Below, one piece after another: positions 18,210 through 45,222 of a stretch of 53,138 bases of DNA (position 1 is its first letter; every line of letters starts with the position of its first letter). Under the pieces are notes generated by a model. The model did not search any database and was not told the DNA's origin. It saw only the letters and a program-made list of their open reading frames with translations. The stretch comes from Planctomycetaceae bacterium. Its GTDB lineage: Bacteria > Planctomycetota > Planctomycetia > Planctomycetales > Planctomycetaceae. The stretch lies in assembly GCA_021732995.1 (NCBI GenBank), contig JAKFWA010000056.1:1-53138 (forward strand). Direction: 5' to 3'. Both the position numbers and the translations under genes were made by a program.

Positions 18210-18788
18210 GTGACCGATCAACAGCTCATGCAGTTGGTCGCAGCGGGGCAGAGTGAGCTGTTTGATGAACTCGTCCGCCGGCATCGCACCCCGATGTTGC
18301 GGATGGCGATCAGTAAACTCTCCGACCCGGCTGACGCCGAAGACGCTGTGCAAGAAGCGTTCTTCGCCGCGTTTCGCGCGAAACACACGTTCGACGCCCG
18401 CTATTCGTTCCGTAGCTGGATTTGCACGATCTTGCTGAACGTCTGCCGCCGCCAGCTTCGGCAATCTGCAACTCGGCCTGCCCGAGTTAGTGGGTCTCTG
18501 TCCGAACTTGCCCTGAATGCCGAGCCAGCCACCAACGAATCAGGGCTGACCTCGCTGCTCCTGCGTGAGCGCAACGGCTTGCTGGGCGAGCTGTTGGACT
18601 CACTTCCCGAAGTCGAAGCCGATGCGCTGCGGCTGCGATTTTTCGGCGAGCTGAAGTTTGAAGAAATTGCGGGCGTGATGGAATCCAGTCTGAACGCCGC
18701 GAAAGATCGGGTCCGCCGCGGACTTGAGCGACTCGCCGAAATGGCCCGCCGAAGTTCCAGTATTTGCCAGGAAGGAGATCGGTCGTGA
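18210..18788 (+). CDS. ECF RNA polymerase sigma factor
   Basis: A 192-residue extracytoplasmic-function sigma factor. The sigma-2 region is at about residues 10-80: ELFDELVRRHRTPMLRMAI, then DAEDAVQEAFFAAFR, then SFRSWICTILLNVCR, which match the core-binding and -10 recognition helices. After a Ser/Ala-rich linker, sigma-4 follows at about 125-180 (LLDSLPEVEADALRLRFFGE, LKFEEIAGVMESSLNAAKDRVRRGLERL). Its TGA overlaps the GTG start of the next gene (GTGA), so the two are translationally coupled. The partner has the architecture of a membrane anti-sigma factor, which suggests an envelope signal controls it. Confidence 0.93.
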   Translation: MTDQQLMQLVAAGQSELFDELVRRHRTPMLRMAISKLSDPADAEDAVQEAFFAAFRAKHTFDARYSFRSWICTILLNVCRRQLRQSATRPARVSGSLSELALNAEPATNESGLTSLLLRERNGLLGELLDSLPEVEADALRLRFFGELKFEEIAGVMESSLNAAKDRVRRGLERLAEMARRSSSICQEGDRS

Positions 18789-19441
18789 ATTGCGATCAAG
18801 CCTTTGACTGCCTGACAGACCCGCAGCATCGGGATCTGGATGCACTGCAGTGCCATCTGGATGCCTGCCCGCGCTGCCGCGATCTGGCCGAGGCTCTACA
18901 ACCGGCGCTGACGCTCTTCGACGAGGCTTCGTCTGACTTCGGCTGCTTACCGAGTGCTCCAGAGATTCACTGCAGCGACGAGGTGAGCCGGGCGGTTCCG
19001 AGATCATCTCAGTTGCGCCACGCGAGCAAGTGGGCATCAGCCGCTCAGGATGCTGCGTTGCAAAGTCACGGTCACCGCCACACGGAAAGTGCCAAGGTTG
19101 CCGTCGTACTTTTGCTGATCGGGGCTTTCACGGCTGCACTGGCTCATGTCGGGCGTGAATCTTCAGGCCCGCTGGCTCAAGTCGCCGAAGTTGGTGGTGA
19201 GAGCTGTCTCAGGGAAAGACTGGATGCGACGACGGAATCCGCGCCGGCATTGGCTGCTTGCCTAGCGTGCCATCTGGATTCTGCGGAATCCAGGAAGTTC
19301 AATCTCGAAGCACGGCAGAATGTGCAGCGCATCGTTAAGAGTTGCGTGGTCTGCCACCTGGACATGCTTGCGTGGCAGGAGATCGCGGCTTCCGATTTGA
19401 CCGCGTTCGGCTCCTGCGAGCGACGCCTCTCAGACGGTTAA
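18785..19441 (+). CDS. Anti-sigma-like membrane protein with two CxxCH haem-c motifs
   Basis: About 218 residues. The cytosolic N-terminus has an anti-sigma zinc-finger-like motif, HLDACPRC (H24, C28, C31). One transmembrane helix at about 104-122 (VAVVLLLIGAFTAALAHVG) puts the C-terminus outside the membrane. That part has two CxxCH motifs, CLACH at 159-163 and CVVCH at 187-191, 24 residues apart and both followed by LD. CxxCH on the outer face is the signature of covalent haem c. The start is GTG 18785, overlapping the sigma gene stop, with GGAAGGAG at 18770-18777 upstream. The architecture suggests a redox, nitric oxide, oxygen or haem-sensing anti-sigma factor. This is inference; the haem sites could also bind metal or be disulphides. 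Confidence 0.75.
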   Translation: MNCDQAFDCLTDPQHRDLDALQCHLDACPRCRDLAEALQPALTLFDEASSDFGCLPSAPEIHCSDEVSRAVPRSSQLRHASKWASAAQDAALQSHGHRHTESAKVAVVLLLIGAFTAALAHVGRESSGPLAQVAEVGGESCLRERLDATTESAPALAACLACHLDSAESRKFNLEARQNVQRIVKSCVVCHLDMLAWQEIAASDLTAFGSCERRLSDG

Positions 19442-39979: not shown

Positions 39980-41434
39980 TTACTTCGGTCCGAGCACTTT
40001 CAGTTGCCCCTGACGGGCGTAGTCGATGGCTTCGCCGAGGATGCGAGCGGCTTCTTGCGGAGCGTGAAAGCCCATCGAGTTTTCTGCGTTGATGTAGTCC
40101 ACTCGCCACTGCGCCTTGCGCTGGAGTGCCAACGACTCTTCCAGCACCTTTGGGTCAACATTTCCGGACTTGGCGGTTTTCAGCGTGTCCAGGAGTTCGA
40201 CGAGTGCATCCTCCGCGCGATCCAGAAGAGCTTTGTTACGGGATTGAATGGTCTCTGCCCGAGCCTTGATTTCATCCTCGCCGTACCGGTGGCAAGTCTG
40301 GCAAGCACGAGCGATGTTCAGCAGCGGGCTGCGAACCTGGTGGTCGCTGACCTTGATGGCACCCTCGCGCTGATACGGCATATGGCAGTCGGAGCAGGAA
40401 ACTCCGCTGCGAGCGTGGATGCCTTGATTCCAGAGTTCAAACTCCGGGTGTTGAGCTTTCAGGATCGGAGCGCCAGTCTCCGCGTGAGCGTAGTCCTTGT
40501 AGCTGTTCGCGTCGTAGTAGCTTTCTATCTGCTCGACGCGCAGTCCATTGTGCCATGGGTAGGTTACCGTTTTCTTATCACCCTTGAAGTAATACTCAAC
40601 GTGACACTGTCCGCACACATAGCTGCGCATTTCCTGCCGCGTTGCTAGAGCATTCACATCATATTCGTCGGTACTGCCCTGATTGCGATGACGTGCCCAC
40701 TGATGAATGCTGGTGAGATGCGGCAGCGGAGCTGAACTGGCTTCTTCCTTCGGCTTCTTAGCGTTCGCGGCGAGTTCTTCGGCAACATGCTTGGCGAGGT
40801 CGGCAATGCCGCGGATGAATCCAGGTCGCGTGACACGGAGTTGCATCGACTGCGGATCGTGGCAATCAATGCAAGCCACTGGGTGCTCGACGAGACCGCG
40901 GGCTTCTTTGAGAGGCATGGCACAGATCTTTTCAAACCCCTTCATCAGGTCACCATCACCGGCCTCGCGGTAGGCTGCCGTGATTGACGCATGGCACTGC
41001 AGGCAAGCTCCGGGTTGCTTGAACTGCTTGACGCGTTCGGTGTTGTCCTGATCCTCCAGCATGAAGGCGTGACCGCGACGTTCGCGATAGTCGACGCTGA
41101 ACGCGTACCCCGCGAAAATGCGCCGCAGGCGTGGGTCGTCTTCCAGTTTAGAAATTGCTTCGCTGCCGCCATGTCGGCGTGAAGTGTTCTCGGCAGTCCG
41201 TTTGTAGCTGTCGTACTGGCGCGGGAAATTCTTTCCCCATTCCGCCGGATCGATCGTCTTCTCGGAGAGATCCACTAGCTTCACGTAGTGCTGTTGCGAC
41301 TCCTGCTTGCGCTCGTTGATATTCATCAACAATGCCACGATTCCGTAGGTCACGATGGCAGTGATGATGATAACCGCAACGTACGCACCTTTTCCGCGTG
41401 GAGCAGGCTGAGTTGCGGCATGGGTGTCCGTCAT
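39980..41434 (-). CDS. nrfA: Ammonia-forming cytochrome c nitrite reductase, catalytic subunit
   Basis: NrfA reduces nitrite to ammonium with six electrons on the outer side of the membrane. Five CxxCH haem motifs are seen at C144-H148, C188-H192, C274-H278, C347-H351 and C378-H382. The first site is CLQCH, where classical NrfA has CxxCK with a lysine ligand to the catalytic haem. Other catalytic elements look intact: CHVEYYF (Tyr) and WNQGIHARSGVSC (His). A hydrophobic segment at 18-38 is likely an uncleaved anchor or signal. It starts 12 bases after nrfH. Its expected partner and quinol donor is NrfH. Nitrite ammonification (DNRA) under low oxygen is the inferred role. Confidence 0.93.
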   Translation of the reverse strand: MTDTHAATQPAPRGKGAYVAVIIITAIVTYGIVALLMNINERKQESQQHYVKLVDLSEKTIDPAEWGKNFPRQYDSYKRTAENTSRRHGGSEAISKLEDDPRLRRIFAGYAFSVDYRERRGHAFMLEDQDNTERVKQFKQPGACLQCHASITAAYREAGDGDLMKGFEKICAMPLKEARGLVEHPVACIDCHDPQSMQLRVTRPGFIRGIADLAKHVAEELAANAKKPKEEASSAPLPHLTSIHQWARHRNQGSTDEYDVNALATRQEMRSYVCGQCHVEYYFKGDKKTVTYPWHNGLRVEQIESYYDANSYKDYAHAETGAPILKAQHPEFELWNQGIHARSGVSCSDCHMPYQREGAIKVSDHQVRSPLLNIARACQTCHRYGEDEIKARAETIQSRNKALLDRAEDALVELLDTLKTAKSGNVDPKVLEESLALQRKAQWRVDYINAENSMGFHAPQEAARILGEAIDYARQGQLKVLGPK

Positions 41435-41446
41435 GGTTGTTTCCTT

Positions 41447-41962
41447 TCAGCGCAGGGGGCCATGGCCGACCGCTGCGTGGCAATGAACGCAACTGATCGT
41501 TTCGTTTCCGACGTTTCCGTGGCCGAGGATGTCGTTACAGACACCTCGGTGACATTCAATGCAGTTCTTGTTCAGAATCCGAGAACTCACGGGCCGGACG
41601 CGAATCGGCTCGTGAAAATCCTGCAGCGTAAACCCCTTCGAGTGCCAGAAGCCGTTCTCTGCTTTGACAAGATACTTGGGTATAAACGCGTGCGGCGTGT
41701 GGCAGTCGTTGCAGGTTGCTACCGCGTGGTGACTCGCCTTCTGCCAGCCGTCGTACTGATCCCGCATAATATGGCAGTTGACGCACGCCTTTGGATCGCT
41801 GCTGAGATACGAGAACCCCTCGGCATAACGGACTGTGTAGCTGCCCGTTCCACAGGCGACCCCCAGCAAGAAGCAGAGCACGAGTCCCGGAATGCTGACG
41901 CGACGCCACCAGCCTTGGCGTCGAGACTCGCGGGTTTCTGAGGTTGATTGTTCTGCTGACAT
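41447..41962 (-). CDS. nrfH: Cytochrome c nitrite reductase, small subunit
   Basis: NrfH is the membrane-bound tetrahaem quinol dehydrogenase of the NapC/NirT family that feeds NrfA. After a basic cytosolic N-terminus and one helix at about 24-42, four CxxCH motifs occur at C60-H64, C84-H88, C134-H138 and C158-H162. The spacing and the ASHHAVATCNDCHTPH and HEPIRVRP segments match the family. The length, 171 residues, is usual. It is followed by nrfA after 12 bases, giving the classical nrfHA order, and it starts 63 bases after the PPK2 gene. Confidence 0.94.
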   Translation of the reverse strand: MSAEQSTSETRESRRQGWWRRVSIPGLVLCFLLGVACGTGSYTVRYAEGFSYLSSDPKACVNCHIMRDQYDGWQKASHHAVATCNDCHTPHAFIPKYLVKAENGFWHSKGFTLQDFHEPIRVRPVSSRILNKNCIECHRGVCNDILGHGNVGNETISCVHCHAAVGHGPLR

Positions 41963-43080: not shown

Positions 43081-45222
43081 TTATCCACTCTCCGGTCTGT
43101 GACGTACTTCGATGGCGACCGTCGCCGCGAACTCGGCGGAACTCGAGGTCTTGGGGAGCGACCCTTTTGTCTGTTTGGGCATGAAGCGTTGCCACCATTG
43201 ACGAGCTTCCGCGTCTGTCCAGGAGTCTCCGGTGGCGAGTTGGCTCAGGGCTTCTGCGATATGCTGGGCCGACGCAGGGCGGTGCGCAGGATCCTTGGCC
43301 AGGCATTGCATGAGCAAAGATTCCAGCTCGGGTGACACGGCCTGCGTGGTACGTTGTGAGATCGCTTCAGGGAGCGTGTCGGCCTGAGCCTTGAGGATAT
43401 CCAGGACGCTCTCACCCTCGAACAGGGGAGTGCCCGTGAGCAGGAAATAGCCCACGGCGCCTACTGCATACAAATCGCTGCGAGCATCAACACTCTCGGG
43501 CGACCGACAGGCCTCAGGAGACATGTAGAGCGGGGTGCCGACAACTCCACCGCCATGAGTTGCCAATGCCGCATGCTCGGTAGTTTTCACAAGTCCGAAA
43601 TCGAGCAGTTTTACAAAATCAAATAATCCGCCTCGGTAGTTGAGCAGGATATTCGCCGGTTTAATATCGCGATGAATTAACCCGATGTGATGTGCCTCGG
43701 CGAGCGACCCGCACACCTGCTTCAAGATGTGGATGACACGCCCTTCAGGCTGCAGTCCGTGCCAGTCGACGAGGTTCTCGAGATTGATACCATCCAAGTA
43801 CTCCATGGCGTAGTAGAAGACGCCTTCCGGAGTGCGACCATAGTCGTAAATCGCGATCGTATTGGGGTGATTGAGCTGACTGGTGAGTTGCACTTCTCGC
43901 TCGAAGCGGGCGATGGTCTTTTCGTTCGTCTTGGCGGCATCGAGGAACTTGACAGCAGTCGGTCTGTGCAGCATCGCGTGCTTCGCTCGATACACAACGC
44001 CCATGCCGCCTTCGCCGAGTTTCTCTTCCAGCGTGTACTGGCCCAGGCGCTTCAGTTCGATGGTGGCCAGCCGGGCCTGTTCCGACATTCGATCCGCTCG
44101 CAACATTGATGTCAGCATGGCCATGGATGCTATTGCGAGCAGCGCAAACAAGCTCCAAAACGCGTAGTTGATCGTGTTGAGTGTCTGATGGGCCTCGCTG
44201 ACATCTACCTTGGTGGCGATGCCAAAACCTTCATCACTGAGCCATTGCCAGGCACCAACCACCAGCACGCCGCGGTAGTCGCGATAGCCATGGATATCGA
44301 CGCCATCTCTTCCTGCAACCGCCTCTGTGATCGCGTGTGTCAGCGGCAAGTCGGCTCTTGATCCAGTGGGCCGAGCACCAGTCGTCAGGTCTATGCCCGG
44401 GTCACGCAGCAGGATGTTGAGAGTTGAATCTTCACGTTCCGACAGCAATCCGATTTGTCGAAGTTGTTCGTCGAACCGGCTGTTGCTCAGCAGTGTCCCG
44501 TTCCGATCAAATGCATACGTCTCACCTGTCAGCCCGATCCGTGCGATCTCCAGGATGTGCGTGAATTCAACGTCAGGCTGAATTCGTAAGCCCAGGGCGA
44601 CGAGCACCCCGCCTTGATCATCAAGGACTGGCGCCACTGTGAACATGGTGGGCACTCCGGACCGTTCGACGCCGTGACGGTCCGGTAGCACTGCTCGACT
44701 CTTCGCGGGCAGAATGATCGTGGACTTTCCAGCAAACACCGTACGAGACAACGACTCGAACTGTTCGGCTGGCAAAGTGAGCCCCACCAACTCGTTACGA
44801 AAGGATGCTACGATCTGCCCGCTGGGTTTCAGCACGATGAAGTCGTTGTAGTGATGAGCCGCCAGTACCGGGGTCAACTCGCGTCGCAGTTCAGCCAGTT
44901 GCGGTAGAGTCAGCAGTTCCAATGCGGTTGCGTCTGGCTTCGCACTGTCGACCAAAGCGCGGATGGCGGTTGCAATCTGAGGATCCGTCGCGGCTGATTC
45001 GGCCTGGCTTCGCTGAGTTCGCAGCCACAACCGCAGCGCTTCGTGCTCTGTCTGCAGGGTTGTCTGCAACACGGATGCAAGTTGGGCATTAAGAGTCGCT
45101 GCCACCCTGGCACGCATCACCCAGCCGACACTCGCCAGCACCACCAACACGATCAGCGGGCGCAGCCAGATGTGGCGATGCCACATGGTTGAAACTGTTC
45201 CGGAAAGACTTAGCCGATCCAT
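43081..45222 (-). CDS. Membrane Ser/Thr protein kinase with extracytoplasmic sensor domain
   Basis: A 713-residue receptor-type kinase. A first transmembrane helix lies at about 19-36, followed by an extracytoplasmic region of about 310 residues resembling a dCache/CHASE-type ligand sensor (FIVLKPSGQIVASFRN, GLTGETYAFDRNGTLLSNSRFDEQL, YRDYRGVLVVGAWQWL). The second helix is at about 353-375, then a Hanks-type kinase domain from about 392: GEGGMGVVYRAKH (glycine loop), AVKFLD (Lys), LIHRDIKPANILL (catalytic Asp), LLDFGL, then VGTPLYMSPEA. The order sensor-helix-kinase is opposite to the usual bacterial PknB layout. ATG 45222 was kept; ATG 45186 (MWHRHIWL) is an alternative. It precedes PPK2 and the nrf-glg block. 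Confidence 0.92.
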   Translation of the reverse strand: MDRLSLSGTVSTMWHRHIWLRPLIVLVVLASVGWVMRARVAATLNAQLASVLQTTLQTEHEALRLWLRTQRSQAESAATDPQIATAIRALVDSAKPDATALELLTLPQLAELRRELTPVLAAHHYNDFIVLKPSGQIVASFRNELVGLTLPAEQFESLSRTVFAGKSTIILPAKSRAVLPDRHGVERSGVPTMFTVAPVLDDQGGVLVALGLRIQPDVEFTHILEIARIGLTGETYAFDRNGTLLSNSRFDEQLRQIGLLSEREDSTLNILLRDPGIDLTTGARPTGSRADLPLTHAITEAVAGRDGVDIHGYRDYRGVLVVGAWQWLSDEGFGIATKVDVSEAHQTLNTINYAFWSLFALLAIASMAMLTSMLRADRMSEQARLATIELKRLGQYTLEEKLGEGGMGVVYRAKHAMLHRPTAVKFLDAAKTNEKTIARFEREVQLTSQLNHPNTIAIYDYGRTPEGVFYYAMEYLDGINLENLVDWHGLQPEGRVIHILKQVCGSLAEAHHIGLIHRDIKPANILLNYRGGLFDFVKLLDFGLVKTTEHAALATHGGGVVGTPLYMSPEACRSPESVDARSDLYAVGAVGYFLLTGTPLFEGESVLDILKAQADTLPEAISQRTTQAVSPELESLLMQCLAKDPAHRPASAQHIAEALSQLATGDSWTDAEARQWWQRFMPKQTKGSLPKTSSSAEFAATVAIEVRHRPESG

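Follow-up and report, generated by a model that had tools for sequence, protein, structure and literature searches.

Class I zinc-binding anti-sigma factors (ZAS/ASDI), such as RsrA, ChrR, and RsiW, are the described proteins closest to the one encoded at the locus reported here, which shares with them an Hx3Cx2C motif with an upstream cysteine and a gene overlapping the end of a preceding ECF sigma gene; in the present case, the N-terminal domain is predicted to be helical, and one transmembrane helix is present. To our knowledge, no class I anti-sigma factor carries a CxxCH motif outside the membrane. A haem signal from outside is also answered by an ECF sigma factor and an anti-sigma factor with one transmembrane helix in the FecI/FecR-type systems (HasI/HasS), where a TonB-dependent outer-membrane receptor senses the haem and contacts the anti-sigma factor. 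In contrast, the anti-sigma-like protein described here is of the ZAS type and itself bears the haem motif. The words 'heme' and 'cytochrome' do not occur in the main text of either the classification of class I anti-sigma factors (PMC7406223) or a review of ECF sigma factors (PMC8103513), and the available text of the paper on the ECF genes of Rhodopirellula describes no such sigma/anti-sigma pair (PMC2754498).

The outer sensor domains sCache_heme and Tll0287 hold a CxxCH-bound haem with Cys and His ligands and occur in fusions with kinases, chemoreceptors, and c-di-GMP enzymes (PMC12889525), and Cys and His are the axial haem ligands of Tll0287 itself (PMC12889525; PMC3460858). The main text of the sCache_heme paper does not contain the word 'sigma' (PMC12889525). 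A CxxCH motif outside the membrane as the defining feature is common to the sCache_heme, Tll0287, and GSU0582 types and to the proteins described here, whereas the former have a Cache/PAS-like fold and the latter combine a small outer segment with an anti-sigma domain as output. The profile of the Tll0287 family (DUF3365, PF11845) does not match the protein studied here at E<=10 and is absent among the best 25 of 31 Pfam families recovered for its homologues. The initial annotation of this DNA knew of no described anti-sigma factor of such a type, and the literature searched here, which stops short of the ECF classification and two planctomycete papers, agrees, as no haem-c-bearing anti-sigma factor was found in it. 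Because outer haem-c sensors are known on kinases, chemoreceptors, and c-di-GMP enzymes and none was found there on an anti-sigma factor, we regard the present protein as a variation on the known zinc-type anti-sigma factors, with an outer segment of the haem-c type.

The window analyzed here, a stretch of 53,138 nucleotides, corresponds to contig C65 of a planctomycete genome of 9.39 Mb (G000). It contains an ECF sigma gene overlapping the following gene by the sequence GTGA (Table 1), exactly as had been annotated initially, and the sigma factor exceeds the Pfam cut-offs for both Sigma70_r2 and r4_2 as well as that of the NCBIfam model for the sigma70-ECF superfamily (80.9 bits, cut-off 42.9). 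A TTG codon further upstream, at 18764, was ruled out as the start of the second gene, since the homologues begin with MNCDQAFD, which corresponds to 18785. The encoded anti-sigma-like protein does not reach the cut-off of any Pfam model; the NCBIfam model 'antisigma' covers residues 18-136 with a score of 19.4 bits (cut-off 100), and zf-HC2 (PF13490) gives no match at E<=10 with the HMMER filters on, while the same model matches 35 of 51 family members at E<=0.1 (best value 2.9e-4). The features proposed initially, namely a zinc-finger-like H24-C28-C31 set, one transmembrane helix, and two CxxCH motifs beyond it, were all recovered at the level of the single protein. The zinc-type set is completed by C3, giving the combination of upstream Cys and Hx3Cx2C characteristic of class I ZAS/ASDI proteins, and 23 residues lie between H163 of the first motif and C187 of the second. 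The outer cysteines C141 and C211 had been absent from the initial annotation.

Table 1. Positions of the sigma/anti-sigma-like gene pair, of the features of the anti-sigma-like protein, and of a nitrite reductase-like gene in the window.
Feature	Position	Strand	Remarks
ECF sigma factor	18210..18788	+	192 aa, GTG start; Pfam Sigma70_r2 E=4.2e-15, r4_2 E=1.1e-9
Anti-sigma-like protein with outer CxxCH	18785..19441	+	218 aa, GTG start, GTGA overlap with sigma gene
N-terminal zinc-type anti-sigma domain	18785..18937	+	residues 1-51; C3, H24, C28, C31 invariant in 51/51
Transmembrane helix	19097..19153	+	residues 105-123 (hydropathy), 99-122 (AF2 model)
C141, outer cysteine between transmembrane helix and first CxxCH	19205..19207	+	invariant in 51/51
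First haem-c-type motif, CLACH	19259..19273	+	residues 159-163; CxxCH kept in 66/66 uncut family members
Second haem-c-type motif, CVVCH	19343..19357	+	residues 187-191; two CxxCH in 13/66 members in the GTDB family
C211, second outer Cys outside the CxxCH motifs	19415..19417	+	exactly two such Cys in 35/39 two-motif proteins
Cytochrom_C552 (NrfA) gene	39980-41434	-	E=3.4e-130; pair with upstream gene spans 39980-41962 (-)

In the AF2 model of the window protein, the N-terminal part consists of helices 3-11, 19-27, and 29-51, with pLDDT values of 90-98 over residues 1-50, and a long helix of residues 153-197 bears both CxxCH motifs (block means 56-78). Four PDB entries match by sequence at E<=0.3, and in two of them, 3hug (E=0.054) and RsiW 5wuq (E=0.23), the alignment covers the Hx3Cx2C motif; the former, printed merely as a conserved membrane protein, is presumably the anti-sigma factor RslA. 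The other two, the top-ranked designed protein 8qag (E=0.025) and the receptor accessory protein 8gy7 (E=0.075), were taken for chance matches. Searches by structure and profile had been proposed initially for the C-terminal part; Foldseek with the model of the whole window protein returned no PDB match, and the comparison of homologues showed the CxxCH motif to be conserved and a second one to be present in 13 of 66. As to cytochrome profiles, the two-motif stretch gives weak matches to models of multihaem cytochromes, all below the curated cut-offs (MtrC/F, E=0.001, 19.1 of 30 bits; Cytochrome_C7, E=0.015, 15.5 of 24.8 bits; Paired_CXXCH, E=0.019). Unlike the multihaem cytochromes, the family has no invariant outer His besides that of CxxCH, as judged from the alignments described below (A2 and A4).

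A first search, which included the window's own genome, matched 21 of 59 genomes. A profile built from 20 sequences (A1) was then run against 170 genomes of the GTDB family, again with the window's own, and matched 84 of them at E<=0.001; a strong group of 67 matches stands out, one copy per genome and thus in 67/170 genomes. The loci of all 67 strong matches and of 13 of 31 weaker rows were extracted, one further weak row coming from a locus already in the set, and upon rescoring all 67 strong matches fell at E<1e-20, the 14 other rows between 2e-9 and 5e-4. One member (L111) is cut by a contig end and was left out. In all 66 uncut members, CxxCH follows the sole hydrophobic helix, which is weakly hydrophobic in L075, and the net charge of the 20 residues before the helix exceeds that of the 20 residues after it in 65/66, being equal in the remaining one. 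The predicted topology is therefore N-in/C-out, with CxxCH on the exported side. Conservation of the motif, on which the initial annotation had staked its reading beforehand, thus extends to every one of the 66 uncut homologues, and an outer CxxCH arising by chance was rejected in view of this conservation among matches at E<1e-20; as judged from the sequences, CxxCH is a hallmark of the family. The presence of two motifs, which had been taken for part of the type, applies to the window protein and is not a family rule, since 53 members carry a single CxxCH and the other 13 a pair.

When 51 of these 66 uncut members were aligned (A2), the mean column identity was 21%, and the invariant residues were exactly C3, H24, C28, C31, P40, C141, C159, C162, and H163, so that C141 and the CxxCH are the sole invariant outer residues. 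Other zinc-type anti-sigma factors served as controls. None of the 11 weak rows with an adjacent ECF sigma gene encodes a CxxCH; the remaining three weak rows were kept out of this control group, L117 and L126 as contig-edge fragments with CxxCH and L122 with four CxxCH, which reads as a multihaem cytochrome. In the window's own genome, 24 zf-HC2 hits were obtained, of which 17 were placed by the Hx3Cx2C rule and 7 remained unplaced, and CxxCH was found in 0/17, with long frames cut at the locus ends. A scan for ECF similarity in named organisms returned at least 80 loci, mostly with other ECF genes, and at least 33 of these have an Hx3Cx2C gene downstream. Among the matches listed, four from planctomycete MAGs (L216-L219) are family members with an outer CxxCH, and the other 29 Hx3Cx2C genes encode no outer CxxCH, the CxxCH being the zinc motif itself in two of them.

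The sigma gene adjoins the family gene in 60 of 67 loci, with a 4-base overlap in 45 of these 60. Of the seven members lacking an adjacent sigma gene, L069 is located at the edge of its contig; the other six have none in the locus, so that their partner must either be encoded at another site or have been substituted. These six CxxCH-containing members (L068, L112, L114, and L116 of g5, L063, and L079) come from the genera g5, g12, and g18.

A search of 397 genomes of the class matched 93 at E<=1e-6, and every locus of the 38 matches from outside the GTDB family was examined, to which a weak match from within the family (G186) and another from a phylum search (G505) were added. In 26 of the 38 loci, belonging to families f5, f13, f14, f16, f17, f20, and f23, a sister form was found, whose N-terminus mostly resembles CDxVFDxLTRGPFPTG and which carries a pair of CxxCH at the C-terminus or close to it in 26/26 cases, a further Cys preceding the first motif (CCxxCH) in 24/26. 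In an alignment of 28 rows (A4), comprising the 26 sister proteins and two of the same form from the window's family, the Cys, Cys, and His residues of both motifs are invariant. The sister gene is adjacent to a sigma gene in 24/26 loci; in addition, L181 has an overlapping sigma frame, and L189 has none. The outer part of the sister form is poorly predicted by AF2. The distribution of the protein family extends across several taxonomic families within the class. Neither L211 (from G186) nor L215 (from G505) has a CxxCH in the stretch examined, and the phylum searches (392 and 382 genomes) returned weak hits alone outside the class (G505, G648, and G656, of which G505 was examined).

From these data, the pair probably represents an ECF sigma factor together with an anti-sigma factor of class I (zinc type) that spans the membrane and would use its outer segment as a minimal c-type haem sensor. 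The N-terminal domain would hold the sigma factor, and the C-terminal part would be exported and its CxxCH matured to covalent haem c, with the extra cysteine as the other axial ligand, giving a haem with His/Cys coordination. The thiolate might then be displaced by a redox change, by a gas such as NO, or by loss of the haem, and this could shift or destabilize the outer helix together with the transmembrane helix and set the sigma factor free, perhaps by proteolysis. The invariance of C141, C159, C162, and H163 in 51/51 sequences of such low identity speaks for this haem-sensing reading, together with the retention of CxxCH throughout the 66 uncut members and the 26 sister proteins. The predicted topology, the lack of CxxCH in the controls, the ResB/CcsA-type frame of the genome, the parallel between extra Cys and motif number, and the precedent of sCache_heme and Tll0287 count in its favor as well. 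Against it stand the small size of the outer segment, the low to middling AF2 confidence there, the lack of a fold match, and cytochrome models staying below their cut-offs; moreover, the number of extra cysteines would fit a Cys3His site equally well and is in part an effect of segment length, six members lack an adjacent sigma gene, and neighbors and promoters point to no signal or regulon. Of the haem-sensing anti-sigma factor proposed initially, the architecture has held up and extends over the whole family, with a zinc-type domain inside, one transmembrane helix, and CxxCH outside, but the outer site may instead be a Cys3His metal site. Proteolysis, binding of a partner, partner switching, and thiol oxidation are known to release anti-sigma factors. 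If the haem-sensing reading is true, transcription initiation would gain a direct input that senses redox state or gases on the outer face of the membrane through a haem c borne by the anti-sigma factor itself, and this may bear on the adjustment of planctomycetes to respiratory conditions.

The natural readings of an extra outer cysteine would be a Tll0287-like second axial haem ligand or a part of a Cys3His metal site. Of the 53 proteins with one motif, 45 have a single outer Cys outside CxxCH and 8 have two; of the 39 with two motifs, 35 have exactly two such residues, 2 have three, and the f16 proteins L176 and L178 have one and none, respectively. The outer segments are 42-144 aa long overall and 84-140 aa in the two-motif proteins. 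When the outer segment of a one-motif protein measures at least 80 aa (13 cases), it has one extra Cys in 6 and two in 7, while 39/40 of the shorter ones have one; the comparison of these long one-motif proteins (6 vs. 7) with the two-motif proteins (2/39 with at most one vs. 37/39 with at least two) gives p=0.002 in Fisher's test, uncorrected for the relatedness of the sequences. The number of extra cysteines follows that of the motifs, partly as an effect of segment length, with which the count per CxxCH is confounded. A tree was calculated for 70 partner sigma factors, leaving out 13 near-duplicate g57 rows, L111, L181, L189, L211, and L215. Motif number changes at least 4 times on this tree as drawn, compared with a shuffled mean of 23.6, and well-supported branches force 1 change; the window's sigma factor falls into a clade of 9/70 with a support of 99, whose partners are all two-motif proteins. 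Repeated joint gain of Cys and CxxCH is suggested by these sequences. It is conceivable, and proposed here tentatively, that planctomycetes across the class possess anti-sigma factors with one or two covalently attached outer haems, each with its own Cys thiolate, whose redox- or gas-driven loss would act via the transmembrane helix on the zinc-type domain; a cytochrome-like protein anchored in the membrane would then control RNA polymerase directly, and gain and loss of Cys plus CxxCH would tune the sensor. The partial dependence of the extra-Cys number on segment length lowers the probability of this proposal.

The same cysteine counts bear on an alternative without haem, in which the outer Cys and CxxCH would form a Cys3His site that binds zinc, copper, or some other metal, or would act as a thiol-disulfide switch, and a metal or oxidant would alter the grip on the sigma factor. 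One extra Cys in 45/53 one-motif and two in 35/39 two-motif proteins would supply such Cys3His sets, a set of this kind is already present in the inner domain, and no cytochrome fold was detected by Pfam or Foldseek. However, the exact CxxCH spacing and the His beside the second Cys are kept in all 66 plus 26 proteins; a disulfide switch needs neither, and a Cys with a directly adjacent His is an unusual pair of zinc ligands. Moreover, where CcsBA-type genes are present, one would expect haem to be attached to a CxxCH that has been exported. We consider this alternative unlikely.

The genes for haem attachment are indeed at hand, as the window's own genome encodes ResB (38.7 bits) and CcsA-type (84.6 bits) domains, both above their cut-offs, in one frame of 1419 aa (G000:C73), which we take to be the arrangement of a fused CcsBA. 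CcsA-type matches were also obtained in 26/26 further genomes examined, including all 12 of f11. Haem attachment is thus possible, and the presence of these genes is no proof of its occurrence, because CcsA-type matches are found in all 26 further genomes, including those of f11, whose homologues lack CxxCH. A further alternative is that haem supply or cytochrome c maturation is sensed, the apo form with a free or disulfide-bonded CxxCH freeing the sigma factor. It assumes the same structure as the haem-sensing reading with another signal, so the probabilities of the two are not additive. The minimal outer domain would suit it, as would the chains of two of the 26 sister proteins (L183 and L186), which end at the motif His, and the absence of any invariant outer residue besides C and CxxCH from A2. 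However, the ccs-type genes of the window's own genome lie on other contigs (C73 and C27), unlinked to the sigma pair, and we would give this signal a minor share of probability.

The 12 remaining class loci, all of f11, encode proteins that stop right after the transmembrane helix (CxxCH in 0/12); no ECF sigma gene was found in any of these loci of 5.4-5.5 kb each, and 11/12 share a locus beside genes reading as rsfS and argS. That CxxCH is a functionless relic, or that the proteins are plain zinc-type anti-sigma factors with an idle outer part, might be read from these 12 short homologues but is very improbable, as the motif residues are invariant across very divergent sequences and the f11 proteins, with their sigma-less loci and rsfS/argS-like neighbors, look like another branch. 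A joint loss of outer segment and sigma gene in f11 was also considered as proof of a functional link and rejected, since the six CxxCH-containing members mentioned above lack an adjacent sigma gene as well, and CcsA-type genes are kept in 12/12 f11 genomes. The f11 loci with this short zinc-type protein with one transmembrane helix are L184, L187, L188, L191-L193, L195, L202, L203, L207, L210, and L212.

A view on the surroundings of the sigma pairs gives few hints on the signal. Clustering of the frames located up to 6 kb from each of the 67 family genes gave no cluster besides the sigma factor (60 loci) that extended across most genera, the clusters being without profile annotation. An ECF-type promoter of the form AAC-N15..17-CGTC occurs upstream of the sigma gene in 2/46 loci, compared with a shuffled mean of 2.9, and a housekeeping-like TTGCAT-N-TAnaAT site occurs in 4/46 loci, which are the four g57 rows kept. 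Genes reading as fae and an H4MPT-type dehydrogenase are located upstream of the sigma gene in the g57 loci (e.g., L082) as well as in L062, L095, and L105, and the dehydrogenase alone in L060; this context, as read from the sequences, appears to be a C1-metabolism neighborhood kept in several genera. The places of Fae matches fall within the loci of L062, L095, L105, and g57. The presence of Fae was rejected as a discriminating clue, since it is found in 165/170 genomes.

A nitrite reductase-like gene pair is located 20 kb from the sigma pair in the window (Table 1), and a second strong NrfA match is present in the same genome (G000:C16, E=1.5e-135). With strong NrfA matches defined by E values under 1e-80, a threshold chosen after seeing the list, 28 genomes contain NrfA, 24 of them together with the family, whereas 43 of the other 142 genomes have the family. 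Counted by genus, the association amounts to 11/14 vs. 19/44 (p=0.03, phylogeny uncorrected). In G001, a genome from the same genus as the window, the family is present and NrfA gave no match. As to the signal, nitrogen oxides are one candidate and no more. The gene just upstream of the NrfA gene encodes four CxxCH and reads as NrfH. A Ser/Thr kinase is encoded at positions 43081-45222 of the window (minus strand; Pkinase E=2.1e-49), and it contains a dCache_1-like stretch scoring 41.1 of 45 bits, just below the cut-off.
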